Of a stretch of DNA of 64,000 nucleotides, positions 4,767 to 15,310 are shown one piece after another (position 1 is the stretch's first letter; each line of letters starts with the position of its first letter). The notes beneath the pieces are model-generated. The model saw nothing but the letters and a program-made list of their open reading frames with translations, was not told the origin of the DNA and did not search any database. The translations under genes and the position numbers were made by a program. The DNA comes from Cloacibacillus porcorum (GTDB lineage: Bacteria > Synergistota > Synergistia > Synergistales > Synergistaceae). The DNA is taken from contig NZ_CP016757.1 of NCBI RefSeq assembly GCF_001701045.1, positions 3,312,219 through 3,376,218 on the forward strand. The letters run 5' to 3'.

Positions 4767-5771
4767 TCAATTCAACAAAAACCCCGGCAGCAACGGGTCC
4801 CTGCTCTGTTCTATGAGCCAGCTGAAACCGGTGATATTGGCCTCCCCGCTTATATAGGGGATAATAGCATCAAACTCGCCTACTTGGACTTTCTCCGTGT
4901 AGTGACCGTTGAATACAGTGCCGATTATACTTTCATGTTTAAAATTTTCGTTGGCTTTGAGCTTTCCCTGTGCCGCCAATAGTGCCATCTTCGCTGACGT
5001 ACCGGTACCACACGGAGACCGGTCCACATTAGAGGCGCCAAAAACGACGCAGTTTCTTGCGTTTTCATTTTCTTTATGGAGGCCAAATTCAACCAGCAAA
5101 ATCTTATTATTCTGCGGAATCAACGGGTGCTGCACTTTAAATTGCCTGTTTGCCTCATCAAGTATCTCCATCCCTAACTTACTCATGGCCTCCGCTTCGG
5201 AGGGCGTCAGATTGAAGCCAAAGTCTTCCGCATCGAGGAGGGCGAAGAAACTGCCGCCAAAGCAGATATCCATCTTGACGCTCCTGGCAAGCGACGGAAT
5301 ATGGAGCAAACAACCAGAGGTATAAACAAAGGCGGGAACATTACGCAGTGTCGCCCTGACTGCCTCCCCATCCTCTACCTCCACAGATATCGTGACTAAG
5401 CCGGCCGGCGTATCCAGAACAACCATCGTAACAGGTTCCGTCACTGTTACCATCTTCAGATTTACCATCGCTGAGGCCAGGCCGATAGATCCATGTCCGC
5501 ACATTGAAACGCTGCCGCCCGTATCGCAGAATATCACTCCGGTATCCGCCCCCTCCATTACAGGCGGCACCATAATCGCTCCAAACATATTGGAGTGTCC
5601 GCGAGGCTCCATCATGATAAAGCGCCTGAAACTGTTGTGGTTCTCCCGAAAATCTTTCCATTTATCCGCCATATTTCGCCCCTTAAGCACCGGAGCCCCG
5701 CCAACCACGACACGCGTCGGCTCACCGCATGTGTGAGAATCTACAACGGCTACCAGCTTTCCCACCTTCAT
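4767..5771 (-). CDS. Proline racemase / 4-hydroxyproline epimerase family enzyme (paralogue 1)
   Basis: 334 residues. Both catalytic Cys of the two-base racemase mechanism are present: Cys91 in SMCGHGS, with the following His, and Cys254 in DRSPCGTGTSA, with the conserved Asp four residues before it. Family knowledge: retention of the second Cys, rather than Thr, argues against a trans-3-hydroxyproline dehydratase and for racemase or epimerase activity on proline or hydroxyproline. The protein is cytoplasmic and has no signal peptide. It diverges from the GrdE/GrdB-like genes, to which it probably supplies a D-isomer substrate (inference). Confidence 0.9.
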   Translation of the reverse strand: MKVGKLVAVVDSHTCGEPTRVVVGGAPVLKGRNMADKWKDFRENHNSFRRFIMMEPRGHSNMFGAIMVPPVMEGADTGVIFCDTGGSVSMCGHGSIGLASAMVNLKMVTVTEPVTMVVLDTPAGLVTISVEVEDGEAVRATLRNVPAFVYTSGCLLHIPSLARSVKMDICFGGSFFALLDAEDFGFNLTPSEAEAMSKLGMEILDEANRQFKVQHPLIPQNNKILLVEFGLHKENENARNCVVFGASNVDRSPCGTGTSAKMALLAAQGKLKANENFKHESIIGTVFNGHYTEKVQVGEFDAIIPYISGEANITGFSWLIEQSRDPLLPGFLLN

Positions 5772-6030
5772 CTTATCTTCACCTCACCTGTACTTCTGTC
5801 TTCCATAAGGATATTTTCTTGACAGGGACCATATTATTTGCAGCTGAATATAAAGTATTGAATTATTTTGCTGCGTTTTTGTTTTTCGTCAGAGCACAAA
5901 ACTTACAGCAAAATTATTCAAGATTATTCACAAAAATTACCTTATCATTTTTTTCATAAACTTTAGTATGTGTCGTAAAGACCGGCCGGAGACAGATACA
6001 CATCAACCACAACTAAGAGGAGGGAATGCA

Positions 6031-7338
6031 TTGAAACTCGATTTTAAGACCCTCAATATTAAGGGACTTGAATGGGGTAAAAAGACGACTGTGTCAGACG
6101 GCGTTCTTTATATTAACCCGATAGAGGCTGTCGTAGCCTGCGGAACACATCCCTATATTGAGAATATCACCCTTCACATCGCACGTCCCGGTGAAAGCGT
6201 CCGCATCATGCCGGTTAAAGATGTGATAGAACCCCGGTGTAAGACTAGCGAAGAGGGGGCGATGTTCCCCGGCTTTGTTGGGGAGCTCAGGCAGGCTGGT
6301 ACTGGCGGCACGCTGGCCCTTAAAGGAGCGGCCGTCGTCGTGACGGAAAATAACGATACCAACGCTGTATGCCGTACCGGCGGATTCATCGATATGACCG
6401 GTCCGGCCGCCGAATATAGCCCCTTCTCAAGGCTGTTCAATCTCGTAGTTAATGTACGGGTAAACGAAGAGGCACAGAAAAACGACACTCAGGCCGTGGA
6501 CGACGCCTGCAAATTGGCTGGCCTCCGCCTTGCCGTCTATCTGGCCGAACGTTGCAAAGACAACGAGCCAGACGAGGTAAAAGTTTATGAAACTCCGGAA
6601 ACAGATCCCTCGCTCCCCGGTGTAGTCTATGTGATGCAGATGCTGGCGCAGAATCCGCTGATAAAAGATTTTTATATTTACGGGCAGCTTGCCGGCGCGA
6701 CTATGATACCAACGATACTTCACCCCAACGAGATACTGGACGGCGCGCTTGTCTCATTCGTAGGTTCGCATAATACCGTATGTTCGGATAAACAGTACAT
6801 GTATGAGATACAAAACGCACCTGCGGTCGAAGAACTCTATAAACTACACGGAAAATCCGTGCGCTTCCTCGGCGTGATCGTACATAACGAGGTCCTGACA
6901 CTGCCAGGGAAAATCCGCAACTCGCTCTTTACGTCAAAAATCGCGAAAATGCTCGGAGCAGACGGCGCCGTACTCGTCACAGAGGGACACGGGAATCCTG
7001 ATGAGGATATTATGCTCAATGTGAAAAATCTCGAAGAGGCCGGCGTCAAAACCGTCATCATTTCCGATGAACTTGGCGGCAGAGACGGCAAAAGCCCCGG
7101 ACTGGCCGATTGGGTAAAAGAGTGCAGTGCGATGGTAAGTGTGGGGAACACACACGAGTTATTGGCTATCCCTCAAAAGATGGATACCTTTATCGGCAAC
7201 GAGGCCAGCCTGGAGATCCTTCATGTGGCGATAGAGCGACAGCCGGAGGAGGCTGATTACTTCTACACGGAGATGATCCACGTGACCGGCGCCTGCGCCC
7301 AGGCCGGGCTTTGCAATCTTTCCGCCAAATGGATGTAG
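6031..7338 (+). CDS. GrdE/GrdG/GrdI-like reductase subunit precursor (glycine/sarcosine/betaine/D-proline reductase family)
   Basis: 435 residues from a TTG start behind GAGGAGGG. The frame extends upstream to 5968, but this start gives the usual length of GrdE (about 430). The family signature GGFIDMTGPAAEYSPFS is at residues 117-133. Members are proproteins cleaved before a Cys that becomes a pyruvoyl group able to hold the substrate amine. Cys251 in HNTVCSDKQYMYEIQN, followed by a segment ending ELYKLHGK, is the best candidate site. It lies 15 bp upstream of the selenoprotein gene. No grdA, grdC or grdD is nearby, so a thioester/acetyl-phosphate branch is not encoded here. The specific substrate is unknown. 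Confidence 0.88.
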   Translation: MKLDFKTLNIKGLEWGKKTTVSDGVLYINPIEAVVACGTHPYIENITLHIARPGESVRIMPVKDVIEPRCKTSEEGAMFPGFVGELRQAGTGGTLALKGAAVVVTENNDTNAVCRTGGFIDMTGPAAEYSPFSRLFNLVVNVRVNEEAQKNDTQAVDDACKLAGLRLAVYLAERCKDNEPDEVKVYETPETDPSLPGVVYVMQMLAQNPLIKDFYIYGQLAGATMIPTILHPNEILDGALVSFVGSHNTVCSDKQYMYEIQNAPAVEELYKLHGKSVRFLGVIVHNEVLTLPGKIRNSLFTSKIAKMLGADGAVLVTEGHGNPDEDIMLNVKNLEEAGVKTVIISDELGGRDGKSPGLADWVKECSAMVSVGNTHELLAIPQKMDTFIGNEASLEILHVAIERQPEEADYFYTEMIHVTGACAQAGLCNLSAKWM

Positions 7339-7353
7339 GGAGGTGCCTGTATA

Positions 7354-8640
7354 GTGACATATAAAATTCTGCATTACATAAACCAGTTCTTTGCCGGCGT
7401 CGGCGGAGAGGATGCGGCAGACTATGAGCCTGAAATCAAAAAAGGCGCGGTCGGACCCGGGCTCCAGCTGAATAACCTCTTCCATGGAGAGGCAGAGGTG
7501 GTCGCCACCTTCATCTGCGGAGACAACTATTTTGCCACACATACCGGACAGGTTTTGGAGATGTTTGACGGCGCTCTTGAGGAATTCCAGCCAGATATCG
7601 TTATCGCCGGCCCATCGTTTTATGCCGGACGCTACGGCCTCGCCTGCGGGAACGTTATTAAGGAGGCTGCGAAGGTTCTCTGCATCCCCGGCATAGCGGG
7701 AATGAACGTCGAGAGCCCCGCCGTGGAGATGTTCCGCAGCGACGTCTTTATCATCAAGACCGGAGATTCCGCGCGCGATATGAAAAACGCCCTGGAGAAA
7801 ATGACGCGCCTGGCCAGAAAGCTTCTCAATAAAGAGCCAATAAACGGCGCCGATGAGAATGGTTACTTTCACAGAGGGTTTCGGAAAAACTTTCGACTTG
7901 AAGAATGCGGCGGTAAACGTGCCGTAGATATGCTTCTTAAAAAAATGGCCGGGGAGGAATTCATCTCGGAGTATATACAGCCGATTCCTGAGAAGGTCGA
8001 CCCCGCACCCTGCATCAAAGATATGAGTAAAGCTACTGTCGCTCTGCTCACGACCGGCGGAATGGTACCAGCTGGGAATCCTGACCGCATAGAGGGGTCC
8101 GCCGCGACAAAATTTGGAGTATACTCAATGGAAGGGCTCAATGCCCTTGAGAAGGGCAAGGTCGTCTCCGTTCACGGCGGATATGATACCAGCTTTGCTT
8201 ATGAAGATCCCAACAGGATCGTACCCCTTGATGTCCTGAGAGAGCTGGAAACAAATGGAGAGATTGGCAGTGTTCATGAGTTTTTCTACAGTACATCCGG
8301 GACCGGTGCCTCTTTATTGAACGGTGAGGCCTTCGGACGGTCAATTGCGGAAAAGCTGAATAAAGCGGGCGTTGACGCCGCGATTATGGTCTCCACCTGA
8401 GGATCCTGCACACGCTGCGGAGCAGCGATCACCAAAGAAATCGAACGTTCAGGCATCCCCTGTGCACATATCACAGCGATCGACCCGATAGCGCATACCT
8501 TTGGAAGCAACAGGATCATCCACGGCGACGCCATCCCCCATCCCCTCGCTCCACCCGATACAGACCGCAAGGCCGAATATGAGGCGCGTAAAACAACTGT
8601 TATGAAAGCTCTGCATTCGCTGCTGGAGGAGATCAGATAA
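7354..8640 (+). CDS. GrdB/GrdF/GrdH-like reductase selenoprotein (UGA at 8398-8400 = selenocysteine)
   Basis: An apparent stop at 8398 is followed in frame by 79 more codons that continue the family perfectly: VST-U-GSCTRCG, then ITKEIERSGIP, and a closing NRIIHGDAIPHPLAPP. Total length with Sec349 is 428, matching GrdB (about 436). The redox motif is U-x-x-C-x-x-C (Sec349, Cys352, Cys355). The N-terminus (HYINQFFAGVGGEDAAD) also matches the family. GTG start after GGGAGGTG. In the known enzymes Sec attacks the substrate bound to the pyruvoyl subunit and reductively cleaves a C-N bond. Together with the gene upstream it forms a complete substrate-specific protein B. The Sec-insertion genes (selA, selB, selC) are not in the window. 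Confidence 0.93.
8413..8427 (+). promoter_or_regulatory. Candidate bacterial SECIS hairpin
   Basis: A perfect 6-bp stem CGCTGC/GCAGCG with loop GGA begins 12 nt after the UGA at 8398-8400. Bacterial SECIS elements lie immediately downstream of the UGA inside the coding region, with a G-rich apical loop read by SelB. The placement and loop fit, but the fold was judged by eye. Confidence 0.55.
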
Positions 8641-8646
8641 AAGAAC

Positions 8647-8705
8647 GATAACTGCATTTAGGTTCTGTGGCATCATTGCGGGACCTAAATGTTCGTTATC
8701 ATTTT
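8647..8705 (+). terminator. Long hairpin after the selenoprotein gene
   Basis: Starting 7 nt past the TAA, GATAAC pairs with GTTATC, then CATTTAGGT pairs with ACCTAAATG, and the stem continues through G-U pairs (TCTGTG with TGCGGG) to a short loop near 8671-8677. A run ATTTTT follows. The length and T-run suggest a Rho-independent terminator or a partial terminator that lowers expression of the araC-like gene downstream. Confidence 0.65.
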
Positions 8706-8738
8706 TCGCGGAATTTTAATATCTGGAGGGATCATAAA

Positions 8739-9584
8739 ATGGCTGGGAAACGTTCTTCACAGTTAAAAAAAATCATTAAGCGTTACTGGAGATCTCATCT
8801 TAGTGACGACATACGTTTCTTAGCCGCGGCATCTGCCGACGATTTGCAGAGAGATAATCTCCCCAAGCCTCATTTTCACAACACCTTTACGATGAGCGCG
8901 CTGGAAGACGGCAGTCTGCCGATCTCATTTCATAACGGGACCGTGATTCTACACCCTGGGGAAATATTGATCATCGGTCATAATATTCCGCATATGGTCG
9001 ATTTGGCCCATATAGACGATGCCTGTTACTACAGGACGGCAACGATAAACGAAAATCTCCTCGACAGTTCTCTCCTCGCCAAGATAAAAGAGGCGGAAAA
9101 CACCGTTTCGAAGATATCCGATAAGAGCCTGTGGGAAAAGTTCGTCAGCGAACAGAGGAATATTGAAAGCGGTGATTCCTATGAGATCAACGCCATGAGA
9201 CATCTCTCTGAAACTATGCTCTCTGAGATCTCAAAAAATGTCCTTCTGCGTTTTCAAGTAAGTTCCCCGTATATAAGACAGATAATGAGATATATGGAAG
9301 ATAACTATATGTCCTCCATTAGCATCGAAGAATTATCAAAAGTTGTTAATCTGAGCCCTTTTCACTTTACCAGGCTATTTAAGCAGGAGGCGGGAATGTC
9401 TCCTCACGCCTATATTACGCAGCTTCGCGTAAACAGGGCGCAGGATTTGATACTTCGCGGCGAGTCGCTGCTTGGCATCGCCTATGAACTCGGGTTCGCG
9501 GATCAAAGCCATTTTTCACGGACCTTTTTGAAGCTGACCGGAGTCTCGCCGGTAAAGTTTAATACCGCATCCAAGGCAGACTGA
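8739..9584 (+). CDS. AraC-family transcriptional regulator with cupin-like sensor domain
   Basis: 281 residues from the ATG behind TGGAGGG. The frame opens at 8667, but that region overlaps the hairpin. The N-terminus has a cupin-like pattern (PHFHNTFTMSAL, then LHPGEILIIGHNIPHMV). The C-terminal 100 residues hold two helix-turn-helix units (SIEELSKVVNLSPFHFTRLFKQEAG and LLGIAYELGFADQSHFSRTFLKLTGVSP). AraC proteins of this design bind a small ligand and usually activate. Its position between the reductase genes and the second racemase makes it the likely local regulator. Confidence 0.9.
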   Translation: MAGKRSSQLKKIIKRYWRSHLSDDIRFLAAASADDLQRDNLPKPHFHNTFTMSALEDGSLPISFHNGTVILHPGEILIIGHNIPHMVDLAHIDDACYYRTATINENLLDSSLLAKIKEAENTVSKISDKSLWEKFVSEQRNIESGDSYEINAMRHLSETMLSEISKNVLLRFQVSSPYIRQIMRYMEDNYMSSISIEELSKVVNLSPFHFTRLFKQEAGMSPHAYITQLRVNRAQDLILRGESLLGIAYELGFADQSHFSRTFLKLTGVSPVKFNTASKAD

Positions 9585-9609
9585 TATTAATACAGGGAGG
9601 TATAAAATT

Positions 9610-10620
9610 ATGAACGCAAAACGTATGGCGGCAGTAGTAGATACACATACCAGCGGAGCGCCGACAAGGATCATCGTTGGCGGCGGACCGCTTCTCAAAG
9701 GGGAGACTTTCGCCGACCGCTGGCTTGATTTCAAAGAAAACCACGATGATTTTCGCCGTTTTGTAATGTGGGAACCTCACGGACATGACAATATGTTCGG
9801 CGCCCTCCTGACACGTCCCGTAAATCCGGAAGCGCATTACGGAATAGTCTTTATGGACAGCGACAGCAGCGTGTCAATGTGCGGGCACGGCTCCATCGGT
9901 GTCTCCCGCACATTGATCGATCTCGGTATGATAAAGAAAAAAGAGCCCTATACCGAGGTCGTGTTAGAGGCGCCTGCTGGGCTGGTGAAGGTCAAAGTCG
10001 AGGTAAAAGACGGCGTAGTCGGAGATGTTATCCTGCAAAACGTTCCTTGCTTCGTGCAGCAAAAAGACGTTGAGATAACCCTTCCTTCCACCTGTCAGAA
10101 GGTCAAGCTGGATATCGCCTTTGGCGGGAATTATACGGCGATGGTCCCAGCGGACCAGTTCGGCTTCAACATCGACCCCGACGAGATCAAAAAGATGATC
10201 CCGCTCGGAATAGAAATCCGCGACGCTGTCAACGACCAAATAACATTCCAACACCCGACCAATCCGGCCCTGAATAAAATAATCCTCACAGAATTCACCC
10301 TTGACGCTCCCCAGGGCGAGCCTAAACGCAATCTGGTAACGTGGGCCGCCGGGCAACTTGCCCGTTCCGCCTGCGGCACGGGCACCAGCGCGCGCCTAGC
10401 CTGTCTGGCAGACAAACGCCAGCTCGCTCCCGGCGTATGGTTTGATCATGCCGGCGTCACCGGCAGTATCTTCAACGGTTCATATGAACCAGGCCCTAAA
10501 GTAGGTGAGTTTGATACCGTCATACCCTACATAAAGGGACGTTCCTATATAACAGGCTTCAACTGGCTCATCCAGCAGGAGGAGGACGAGCTAGCAGACG
10601 GATTCTTCATCAAGAGATAA
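9610..10620 (+). CDS. Proline racemase-fold enzyme (paralogue 2, conserved Asp replaced by Ala)
   Basis: 336 residues, same fold and length as the protein at 4767-5771, with Cys91 (SMCGHGS) and Cys255 (ARSACGTGTSA). The residue four before the second Cys is Asp in proline racemases and in paralogue 1 (DRSPC) but Ala here (Ala251, codon GCC), and the Pro before the Cys is also Ala. In the well-studied trypanosomal proline racemase that Asp is part of the active site. This copy may thus act on another substrate or catalyse a different step. It starts 26 bp after the AraC gene and precedes the symporter. Confidence 0.88.
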   Translation: MNAKRMAAVVDTHTSGAPTRIIVGGGPLLKGETFADRWLDFKENHDDFRRFVMWEPHGHDNMFGALLTRPVNPEAHYGIVFMDSDSSVSMCGHGSIGVSRTLIDLGMIKKKEPYTEVVLEAPAGLVKVKVEVKDGVVGDVILQNVPCFVQQKDVEITLPSTCQKVKLDIAFGGNYTAMVPADQFGFNIDPDEIKKMIPLGIEIRDAVNDQITFQHPTNPALNKIILTEFTLDAPQGEPKRNLVTWAAGQLARSACGTGTSARLACLADKRQLAPGVWFDHAGVTGSIFNGSYEPGPKVGEFDTVIPYIKGRSYITGFNWLIQQEEDELADGFFIKR

Positions 10621-10731
10621 TTCTATATTTATAAAACACTATATAACACAGATCATATATCTCTACAGAGATATACTGTTGGTTTATTGTTTCCTGAAAT
10701 AAAGGCAAAAAAACCGAGAGGAAGTGAATTT

Positions 10732-12363
10732 ATGGATTATTTAGTCGTTAAGAATCTTGATATTGCGGTGATAGTTATATACTTTATGGCAGTTATCGGC
10801 AACGGTATCTACTGGAGCAGAAAGGCAAAACAAAGCAATGACTTTTTGCTGGGGGGAAAATCTTTTGGCATATTCTCGACCCTCTGTACACAGGGGGCAA
10901 CTATGAAGGGCTCGGGAGCCCTGATGGGATACAGCGCGGGCGCTTACGTCAACGGAACCGGAGTCCTCATCTCCAGTCAATGTTACAGCCTTGGGGCATG
11001 GGGGGCTATTCTCTCCGGCATCGCGCGTAAGCTGAAAAAATGCTCCAATATTATAGATATACGCAGCTCGGGTGACCTTTTCTTGAGAAGATTCGACAGC
11101 CCCCTATTGAAAAAACTGTCTGGGCTTGGCGGGGCGTGGCTGGCGCTGTCGATAATGAGCGGAAACATGGCGGCTGTGGGGCTGCTCATCCACCTGTTAT
11201 TTAACAAATACGGACTCACATTTGAAGCTTCACTCATTATCGGAATGACGATAACCATCATCTACACAACGCTCGGCGGATTAGTCTCCGTCGTCCACAA
11301 TGACGTGCTGCAATGGCTGATAATGACGCCGCTCATATTTATCGTCGTTCCGGCGATGCTCATAATATATGGCGGGGCAACACCCACGGCGATTCACAAT
11401 GCTTTGAATGCGGAACAATACTTCTCCCTGAGGCCGAATATCTGGTGGCTGGGTTATCTGTTAAGCGGCGTGCTGGCCGCCTGCTGCGACGTAAACCATC
11501 TGACACGATTTATAACCGCTAAAGACGAGAAGACTGCCGTCAAGGGAAGTATGCTCGGCTTTACCTTCTGTACCCTGCTTGCCGGGCTGGTCATTTTCTT
11601 TGGTCTTACTGCGGCAATGCTCATCGAACCCTCCGTCGTCGCTTCAAATAAAGACGGCGTCATACTCGCCCTCGTTTCAAGAATTCTGCCAGCCGGCCTG
11701 GTTGGTCTCTTTATCGCAGCCACCCTCGCCATGACCATCTCCACGATCGACTCCAACCTTAATACCTCAGTCCTCTGCGTGATGGTCGATATCGTAGAAC
11801 CATCACTTTCTCAAAATACAACGGAAAAGCAGAAACTTTTATACTGCCGCGTCATTAACTTCATCATCGCCGCACTTTCCATATTTTTCGTTCTCAAAGT
11901 AAAAGGTATCGTAGCAATAATGGGAATGGGATTCAATGTCTATTCTTCGGCGTTCTTTGTCCCGCTCATGTCCTGCATGTTCTGGAAAAAAGCGACAAAA
12001 AACGGCTGCCTCGCAGGAATAATATCGGGCGGCATTATGGCAGTAGCAGCCATTAACATGAAGCTGCCCTTACCCGTCGTTTGGGGCGTGGCAGTCTCAC
12101 TTGTGCTGACTGTCTCCGTATCTCTTTTCATCTGCCGTGACAGCGCCGAAAGAGACCTGCTGCCTGGATTCAGCGAAAGCGGCCAGAAGATCGATCGCCA
12201 GGTATTTACCGCCTGCATACTCGGCGCCTCAGGTTCGCTCGTATTCTCCATTGGTGTAGGAATGTGGATAAACTGGATCTGCATCATCATCGGCGCGGCG
12301 GCGATGTACTCCTGCATACGTATCCTTAACAGAGCATTTTCAGAGTATCAGCCAACCGCCTAA
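10732..12363 (+). CDS. Sodium:solute symporter (SSS family)
   Basis: 543 residues from the ATG after GAGAGGAAGTG; the longer frame from 10687 lacks a ribosome site. About 13 hydrophobic segments. The start YFMAVIGNGIYWSRKAKQSNDFLLGGKSFG is typical of SSS transporters (proline, pantothenate, solute carriers), as is the conserved TISTIDSNLNTS region near residue 340. Na+-driven uptake at the cytoplasmic membrane. By position it should import the substrate of the racemase/reductase enzymes, perhaps proline, hydroxyproline or a betaine derivative (inference). Confidence 0.87.
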   Translation: MDYLVVKNLDIAVIVIYFMAVIGNGIYWSRKAKQSNDFLLGGKSFGIFSTLCTQGATMKGSGALMGYSAGAYVNGTGVLISSQCYSLGAWGAILSGIARKLKKCSNIIDIRSSGDLFLRRFDSPLLKKLSGLGGAWLALSIMSGNMAAVGLLIHLLFNKYGLTFEASLIIGMTITIIYTTLGGLVSVVHNDVLQWLIMTPLIFIVVPAMLIIYGGATPTAIHNALNAEQYFSLRPNIWWLGYLLSGVLAACCDVNHLTRFITAKDEKTAVKGSMLGFTFCTLLAGLVIFFGLTAAMLIEPSVVASNKDGVILALVSRILPAGLVGLFIAATLAMTISTIDSNLNTSVLCVMVDIVEPSLSQNTTEKQKLLYCRVINFIIAALSIFFVLKVKGIVAIMGMGFNVYSSAFFVPLMSCMFWKKATKNGCLAGIISGGIMAVAAINMKLPLPVVWGVAVSLVLTVSVSLFICRDSAERDLLPGFSESGQKIDRQVFTACILGASGSLVFSIGVGMWINWICIIIGAAAMYSCIRILNRAFSEYQPTA

Positions 12364-14671: not shown

Positions 14672-14704
14672 ATAACAGGCAAACAAAAACGGGAGATGAG
14701 TCAA

Positions 14705-15310
14705 ATGGCGGCAAACTGCGGCAATGAAAGAAGTTTTGAAGTCATAACGGAGAGATGTCTGGCCTATTACAACGCTCCAGCGGGGAGAAAACCGCTGGAG
14801 ATAATCTCCGAGGTCATGGACGACGTGAATTTCCCCATGCACAACTTCGCGCATCACTACCTGGTCCCAGCGGTGCTGCTGACGGCGGTCTGCGTAAAGG
14901 AGGGCACGCCCCCGGAAATATATCAGAAGAAAATGGCTGAGGTTGCCGCACGCGCGAAAAACGTGCTGCCAGCCTTCTGCGGCCTCTACGGGGCCTGCGG
15001 CGCCGCCGTCGGCTGCGGTATCTTCATGAGCGTACAGACCGGCACCACCCCTCTGTCAAGAGAGACGTGGGGACTCTGCAACCACGCGACCGCCGGCGCG
15101 CTCGAAAAGATGGCGGATATGGGCGGCCCTCGCTGCTGCAAAAGAAACACCTTCGCGGCCCTCGCCTACATGAAAGGATATCTCGCGGAGAAACTCTCCG
15201 TCGACCTTGAGATACCAAACGAGATCAAATGCGCCTACAGCAAGTTCAACAACGAATGCCTGAAAGAAGACTGCCCCTATTACGACGACAAAAAGGAGGT
15301 GGCCAAATAA
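14705..15310 (+). CDS. DUF5714-domain Cys-rich protein
   Basis: 201 residues; the ATG at 14705 is preferred over 14696, which touches the GGGAG. It is rich in Cys and His, with NFPMHNFAHHYLVPAVLLTA near residue 45, a central glycine-rich GLYGACGAAVGCGIF, GGPRCCKRNTFAAL, and a C-terminal CLKEDCPYY. This matches the DUF5714 family, whose function is not established. The Cys pattern suggests a metal or Fe-S cofactor. Its stop overlaps the next start (TAATG), so it is tightly coupled to the ABC transporter genes. Confidence 0.75.
   Translation: MAANCGNERSFEVITERCLAYYNAPAGRKPLEIISEVMDDVNFPMHNFAHHYLVPAVLLTAVCVKEGTPPEIYQKKMAEVAARAKNVLPAFCGLYGACGAAVGCGIFMSVQTGTTPLSRETWGLCNHATAGALEKMADMGGPRCCKRNTFAALAYMKGYLAEKLSVDLEIPNEIKCAYSKFNNECLKEDCPYYDDKKEVAK

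Follow-up and report, generated by a model that had tools for sequence, protein, structure and literature searches.

A racemase-linked protein B pair of Cloacibacillus porcorum without the pyruvoyl-forming cysteine: a possible reductase for proline or a proline derivative

Introduction

Protein B is the substrate-recognising part of glycine reductase. A protein B-like gene pair of Cloacibacillus porcorum, a gut-type bacterium that ferments amino acids, lies between two genes of the proline racemase family, and the locus raises the question of which electron acceptor such a pair would serve and whether it would act alone or together with the other glycine reductase proteins. The stretch of DNA analysed (64,000 nucleotides, hereafter the window) covers positions 3312219-3376218 of a genome that is assembled in one contig of 3,585,187 bases and is 99.98% complete. 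An earlier note on this DNA had read the pair as a pyruvoyl-type and a selenocysteine-containing subunit that might work alone on a D-proline or D-hydroxyproline derivative.

Results

Gene content of the cluster

Analysis of window positions 4767-12363 recovered all six genes listed in the earlier note, the ProR1 gene on the minus strand being followed by the grdE-like, grdB-like, AraC, ProR2 and SSF symporter genes (Table 1). The four enzyme genes matched their families with E-values of 1e-98 to 1e-140. The entire cluster, with the racemases beside protein B, was syntenic in a congener (L126), and the dN/dS ratios against this congener ranged from 0.03 to 0.10 (ProR2 0.03, GrdE 0.05, GrdB 0.08, ProR1 0.10). 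Open frames, family E-values, low dN/dS and synteny in the congener place the cluster far beyond chance.

The likely start of grdE is the TTG at 6031, located behind AGGAGG, rather than the ATG at 5968; the frame of the AraC gene is open from 8667 and has an ATG at 8739 behind GGAGG. The divergent promoter region of ProR1 and grdE contains an inverted repeat that is kept in the congener and is a possible AraC operator. The symporter scored 108 bits against the PutP equivalog TIGR02121, under the cut-off of 515 bits. Further along the window (14696-15310) lies the gene of a DUF5714 protein that partially matches the MbdU family of double selenoproteins (86 of 600 bits); a NitT/TauT-like ABC transporter follows it.

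Table 1. Features of the racemase-linked protein B cluster, in window positions.
Feature	Position	Strand	Evidence
ProR1, proline racemase family, canonical active site (MCGHG, EPRGH, Phe at site 5, DRSPCGTG)	4767..5771	-	PF05544 359 bits
Possible operator, imperfect inverted repeat GAATTATTTTGCTG (5860-5873) / CAGCAAAATTATTC (5906-5919)	5860..5919		alignment with congener L126
GrdE-like (protein B alpha-type) subunit, without pyruvoyl-forming Cys	6031..7338	+	PF09338 424 bits; tree
AAT codon, Asn in place of pyruvoyl-forming Cys242, motif GSHNTVCSDK	6772..6774	+	alignment; Cys242 site according to PMC9908766
GrdB-like selenoprotein, 428 aa	7354..8640	+	PF07355 467 bits; TIGR01918 511 bits over cut-off 65
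TGA, selenocysteine in STUGSCTRCGA	8398..8400	+	conserved motif; SECIS-like element after it
Terminator- or attenuator-like hairpin with closing T run, between grdB and araC	8641..8706	+	-28.2 kcal/mol, z -6.5
AraC-family regulator	8739..9584	+	PF12833, PF00165, PF02311
ProR2, proline racemase family, substituted pocket	9610..10620	+	PF05544 329 bits; alignment to AsProR/TcPRAC; tree
Na+/solute symporter, SSF family, PutP-like	10687..12363	+	PF00474 112 bits

The GrdB-like subunit is a selenoprotein

The selenocysteine-containing subunit of the earlier note was borne out, since the protein is a full-length member of the GRDB family and the in-frame TGA falls within its conserved STUGxCTRCGA motif. 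This protein spans the whole 347-position GRDB domain, while the PrdB profile aligned to residues 204-389 alone. Directly 3' of the TGA, at 8401-8438, a sub-threshold match to SECIS_4 was detected (25.2 bits against a gathering score of 38, E 0.0026); the Rfam search at the gathering threshold returned no match, and folding of the element by itself gave a z of -1.6, too little to decide the matter. The genome carries a tRNA-Sec gene (77 bits). Chance UGA readthrough in grdB was ruled out by the motif, the homologous sequence downstream and the dN/dS. The adjacent PF09338 and PF07355 subunits, with 424 and 467 bits against cut-offs of 22, belong to the broad protein B family. A phmmer search found no solved structures of GrdE or GrdB.

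Phylogenetic position of GrdE and GrdB

In the IQ-TREE phylogenies, the GrdE and GrdB of the cluster each belonged to an eight-member clade (support 100/98 and 100/100, respectively), which for both subunits is separate from the groups for glycine, sarcosine, betaine and fluoroacetate. The phylogeny that the earlier note had called for thus places the pair outside the characterised groups and not inside the betaine or sarcosine reductases. Scores against the curated models remained below their cut-offs: 456 of 602 bits for GrdE with the glycine reductase model TIGR01917, 334 of 780 and 532 of 800 bits with the sarcosine models NF040793 and NF040794, 472 of 775 bits with the betaine model NF040795, and 169 of 675 bits for GrdE with the fluoroacetate model NF053623. 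The window GrdE also differs from the glycine type by Asn at the Cys242 position and from the betaine type by GSHNTVCSDK in place of the GSFMPxSSK motif. Membership in the known protein B groups was ruled out by the trees and the curated cut-offs, and GrdEB is a full protein B architecture in its own well-supported lineage.

Two types were distinguished within the clade by the residue aligned to Cys242. The Asn type, formed by the window, the congener L126 and the contig L031, was monophyletic (100/98 for GrdE and 100/99 for GrdB). The Cys type comprises the genome's own paralogue at C1:38 kb (L025), L127, L128/L032, L129 and L130/L033; L128 and L032, whose contigs are equally long, are apparently the same genome region, and likewise L130 and L033. 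In the GrdB tree the Asn type was nested within the Cys type, so that Cys is the older state there. A search of 188 Synergistota genomes found the lineage in only five of them and the Asn type in two.

The Cys-type clusters (own paralogue, L127, L128, L129 and L130) showed the arrangement grdE-grdB-araC-SSF with no racemases, and their symporters were homologous to those of the Asn-type clusters. Both observations would suit a protein B for a simple, unrelated acceptor that this sister lineage also uses, the racemases being mere neighbours engaged, for example, in D-proline or hydroxyproline turnover. We consider this improbable, because the racemase-bearing copies form one lineage that shares the loss of the pyruvoyl Cys, so that its specificity has probably shifted, and because ProR2 sits between araC and the symporter gene in both the window and the congener.

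Loss of the pyruvoyl site in GrdE

The GrdE of Clostridioides difficile carries a Cys-derived pyruvoyl at residue 242 (PMC9908766), which in our alignment corresponds to the Cys of GNCVSACDK in clostridial GrdE. This column contained Cys in all glycine- and sarcosine-type rows, Phe in every betaine-partnered GrdE row and Trp in FarE. Asn was found in the window GrdE (GSHNTVCSDK), L126 and L031, while the racemase-free sister lineage has Cys (GAHCTVCSDK). Three residues past the Asn site, the window and L126 share a second Cys, where L031 has Ser; this position is not the canonical one. The description of this protein as a pyruvoyl-type subunit is therefore not upheld by the alignment. The same applies to a pyruvoyl mechanism as in D-proline reductase, which uses a Cys-derived pyruvoyl in its large subunit (PMC9908766). 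Since the role of the GrdE pyruvoyl is debated, and it may keep GrdB active instead of binding glycine (PMC9908766), the loss of Cys alone does not exclude an amine substrate.

Another GrdE of this genome without the pyruvoyl Cys, with Gly aligned, is encoded at C1:2745210-2747585 (L024:4953-7610) as part of a divergent betaine-like protein B pair that adjoins a glycine-type pair.

The two racemases

ProR1 contains both catalytic Cys as well as the DRSPCGTG motif, and Phe occupies sites 1 and 5; its best solved relative is AsProR (7pb3, E 4.6e-95), and it scored 383 bits against the equivalog NF010576, below the cut-off of 556 bits. ProR2 keeps both catalytic Cys (MCGHG, SACGTG) and carries three substitutions, Trp245 for Phe at site 5, Ala251 for the motif Asp (LARSACGTG versus DRSPCGTG) and EPHGH for EPRGH. 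Of the listed Synergistota rows with a racemase fold, only ProR2 of the window and of the congener had Ala in place of the motif Asp. Three relatives from another family (L186, L187 and L188 of genomes G010, G007 and G009), which form a small subfamily near ProR2 in the tree, share Trp at site 5 and EPHGH and have kept Asp. No grd genes were found in the two readable flanks of the closest ProR2 relatives (L214 and L215); L186 is a 3.1-kb contig.

Conserved motifs of the racemases contact the substrate carboxyl group or the pyrrolidine nitrogen, and Trp at site 5 of the bifunctional TlProR matters for hydroxyproline (PMC4364671). ProR2 was the most constrained of the four genes measured (94% identical to that of the congener, dN/dS 0.03), and this strong purifying selection indicates that the altered pocket is maintained and not decaying.

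The altered ProR2 and the pyruvoyl-free GrdE could both follow from an N-quaternary substrate, which would explain the missing pyruvoyl and the missing Asp together. The pair would then be a protein B for proline betaine (stachydrine) or hydroxyproline betaine, ProR2 would racemise the betaine and GrdEB would open the ring, a Schiff base being unnecessary. The pyruvoyl Cys is lost here as it is in the betaine subunits (Phe) and FarE (Trp), whereas all glycine and sarcosine rows keep it, and the combination of Trp at site 5 with an Ala unique among the listed Synergistota rows is held at a dN/dS of 0.03. On the contrary, a search for convergence of the Asn type with betaine protein B found none past one strict column per subunit, and the GrdE residues were of glycine type in seven cases against one of betaine type, which weakens the betaine idea. 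Moreover, the literature consulted contained no report of a racemase-fold enzyme that acts on a betaine, the active site of ProR1 is normal for a proline racemase, and the cluster contains no BCCT/OpuD transporter. We regard this explanation as unlikely. A reductase of N-methylated or quaternary proline (e.g. proline betaine), in which a racemase adapted by Asp to Ala and Trp is combined with a pyruvoyl-free protein B feeding GrdA/GrdCD, appears rather unlikely.

GrdA, GrdC, GrdD and the other protein B pairs of the genome

The earlier note had reported GrdA, GrdC and GrdD as absent, which holds for the neighbourhood of the cluster but not for the genome. Single copies, all above the curated cut-offs, were located at C1:2452235 (GrdA, with in-frame TGA), C1:2732716-2734242 (GrdC) and C1:2731538-2732701 (GrdD); the frame of GrdD is open over 403 codons, although one internal TAG was first listed. 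The genome gave eight GrdE matches and nine GRDB matches, eight of the latter with in-frame TGA and one a Cys version of the C-terminal part. Presumably the eight GrdE/GrdB pairs share one GrdA/GrdC/GrdD set; PMC10838667 likewise holds that one protein A/C set serves several protein Bs, farEB of C. porcorum included.

Outside the genus, the closest relative was L031, whose GrdB is 78% identical to the window GrdB; on this contig grdC-grdD lie directly upstream of the orthologous grdE-grdB. L031, which is 5 kb long and of low coverage, had been binned as Caldisericia. Compared with the proteins of the window genome, its GrdD shows 69% identity and its partial GrdC 85%, so that the contig is probably from a Synergistaceae relative and likely mis-binned. 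The position of grdCD beside the orthologous grdEB argues that the window-type protein B works with protein C.

These data bear on the idea of a stand-alone analogue of D-proline reductase, in which GrdEB and a dithiol would convert D-proline to 5-aminovalerate without GrdA, GrdC and GrdD. The racemases and the PutP-like transporter would suit such an enzyme. So would the result of the genome-wide search for prdAB proposed in the earlier note: no PrdA or PrdB scored over the equivalog cut-off anywhere in the genome. However, the Cys-derived pyruvoyl of D-proline reductase (PMC9908766) is missing here, GrdA, GrdC and GrdD are encoded in the genome, and grdCD adjoin the same type of grdEB in L031. 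A protein B working alone is thus not supported, and the stand-alone analogue seems improbable.

The farE/farB genes were found at C1:3477295-3479596 (L027:7287-9867), FarE scoring 883 bits against a cut-off of 675. Near them, at C1:3480911-3481411 (L027:10816-11688), a 290-aa protein that is equivalent to GrdB's C-terminal half carries Cys for Sec (STCGTSSRCG) and is possibly a split or regulatory remnant. A long-branch protein B at C1:2538521-2540884 (L026) grouped with FarEB.

Discussion

The cluster resembles the D-proline reductase PrdA/PrdB of Acetoanaerobium sticklandii and Clostridioides difficile in that a selenoenzyme is genomically linked to a proline racemase. It differs by its protein B architecture, the lack of prd genes and the lack of a pyruvoyl-forming Cys (site by alignment to GrdE Cys242); GrdB is only distantly homologous to PrdB (92 of 300 bits), and GrdE to PrdA (26.5 of 700 bits). 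With GrdEB, GrdGF and GrdIH the pair shares the two-subunit architecture (PF09338 and PF07355), the Sec motif STUGxCTRCG and the GrdA and GrdCD of the genome. In contrast to these, it stands outside all three groups and below the curated cut-offs, has Asn for Cys242 and adjoins racemases, AraC and an SSF symporter. The farACEB system of C. porcorum, present in the same genome, also contains a protein B paralogue without the pyruvoyl Cys that is thought to feed the shared GrdA/GrdC (PMC10838667). It belongs to another lineage and includes an MFS transporter along with a radical SAM protein, but no racemase; FarB has SSRGG where the window GrdB has SCTRCG.

The earlier note had presented the combination as possibly new. 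Leong et al. 2023 (PMC10838667) already assign protein Bs of C. porcorum MFA1 to glycine, proline, betaine and sarcosine, the 'proline' protein B being a grdB/grdE pair assigned from a nearby proline racemase alone; the clusters mapped there include a symporter annotated as putP. This is probably the same cluster type as that of the window. Relative to the text and legends of that paper, the lost pyruvoyl site, the altered ProR2, the sister lineage and the linkage to grdCD in L031 are new.

The most likely electron acceptor is proline or a proline derivative, a substrate read from the gene neighbourhood only. As the best explanation, to which we assign about even confidence, we propose a protein B of new specificity (D-proline or a proline derivative) that has its own uptake, stereochemistry and regulation and feeds the shared GrdA/GrdCD. 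The symporter would import proline or a close derivative and ProR1 and ProR2 would supply the D-form; the GrdB selenol would attack C-alpha with cleavage of the C-N bond, the selenium-bound carboxyalkyl group would pass to GrdA, and GrdC/GrdD would release it as acyl-phosphate. If the substrate is unfit for protein C, the release may take place directly by a dithiol. Since GrdE lacks the pyruvoyl, no Schiff base at this position would activate the substrate nitrogen.

Several points speak against the proposed proline-specific protein B. With a secondary-amine substrate such as D-proline, one would not expect the pyruvoyl Cys to be lost, and the relative L031 is the low-coverage contig described above. 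In the genome's own paralogue and the four other genomes of the sister lineage, the grdEB-araC-SSF core has no racemases, so that the racemases are not essential to the unit. Finally, neither proline nor glycine, given alone, supported growth of C. porcorum CL-84; its growth was better on serine, threonine and proline together than on serine or threonine alone (PMC3709534), which is weakly consistent with proline as acceptor.

If the proposal of a proline-specific protein B is true, protein B would accept, in addition to glycine, sarcosine, betaine and fluoroacetate, a class of substrates whose stereochemistry has to be prepared first, and a proline-type fermentation would be tied to the acyl-phosphate (ATP-yielding) branch and not to the non-phosphorylating D-proline reductase. 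If instead the substrate is an N-methylated or quaternary proline, the cluster would represent a new selenium-dependent gut route for plant or diet betaine, together with a new racemase specificity. Together with the sister lineage that keeps the pyruvoyl Cys, the three that lack it (betaine, fluoroacetate and the window type) form a natural test of the function of the pyruvoyl in GrdE.
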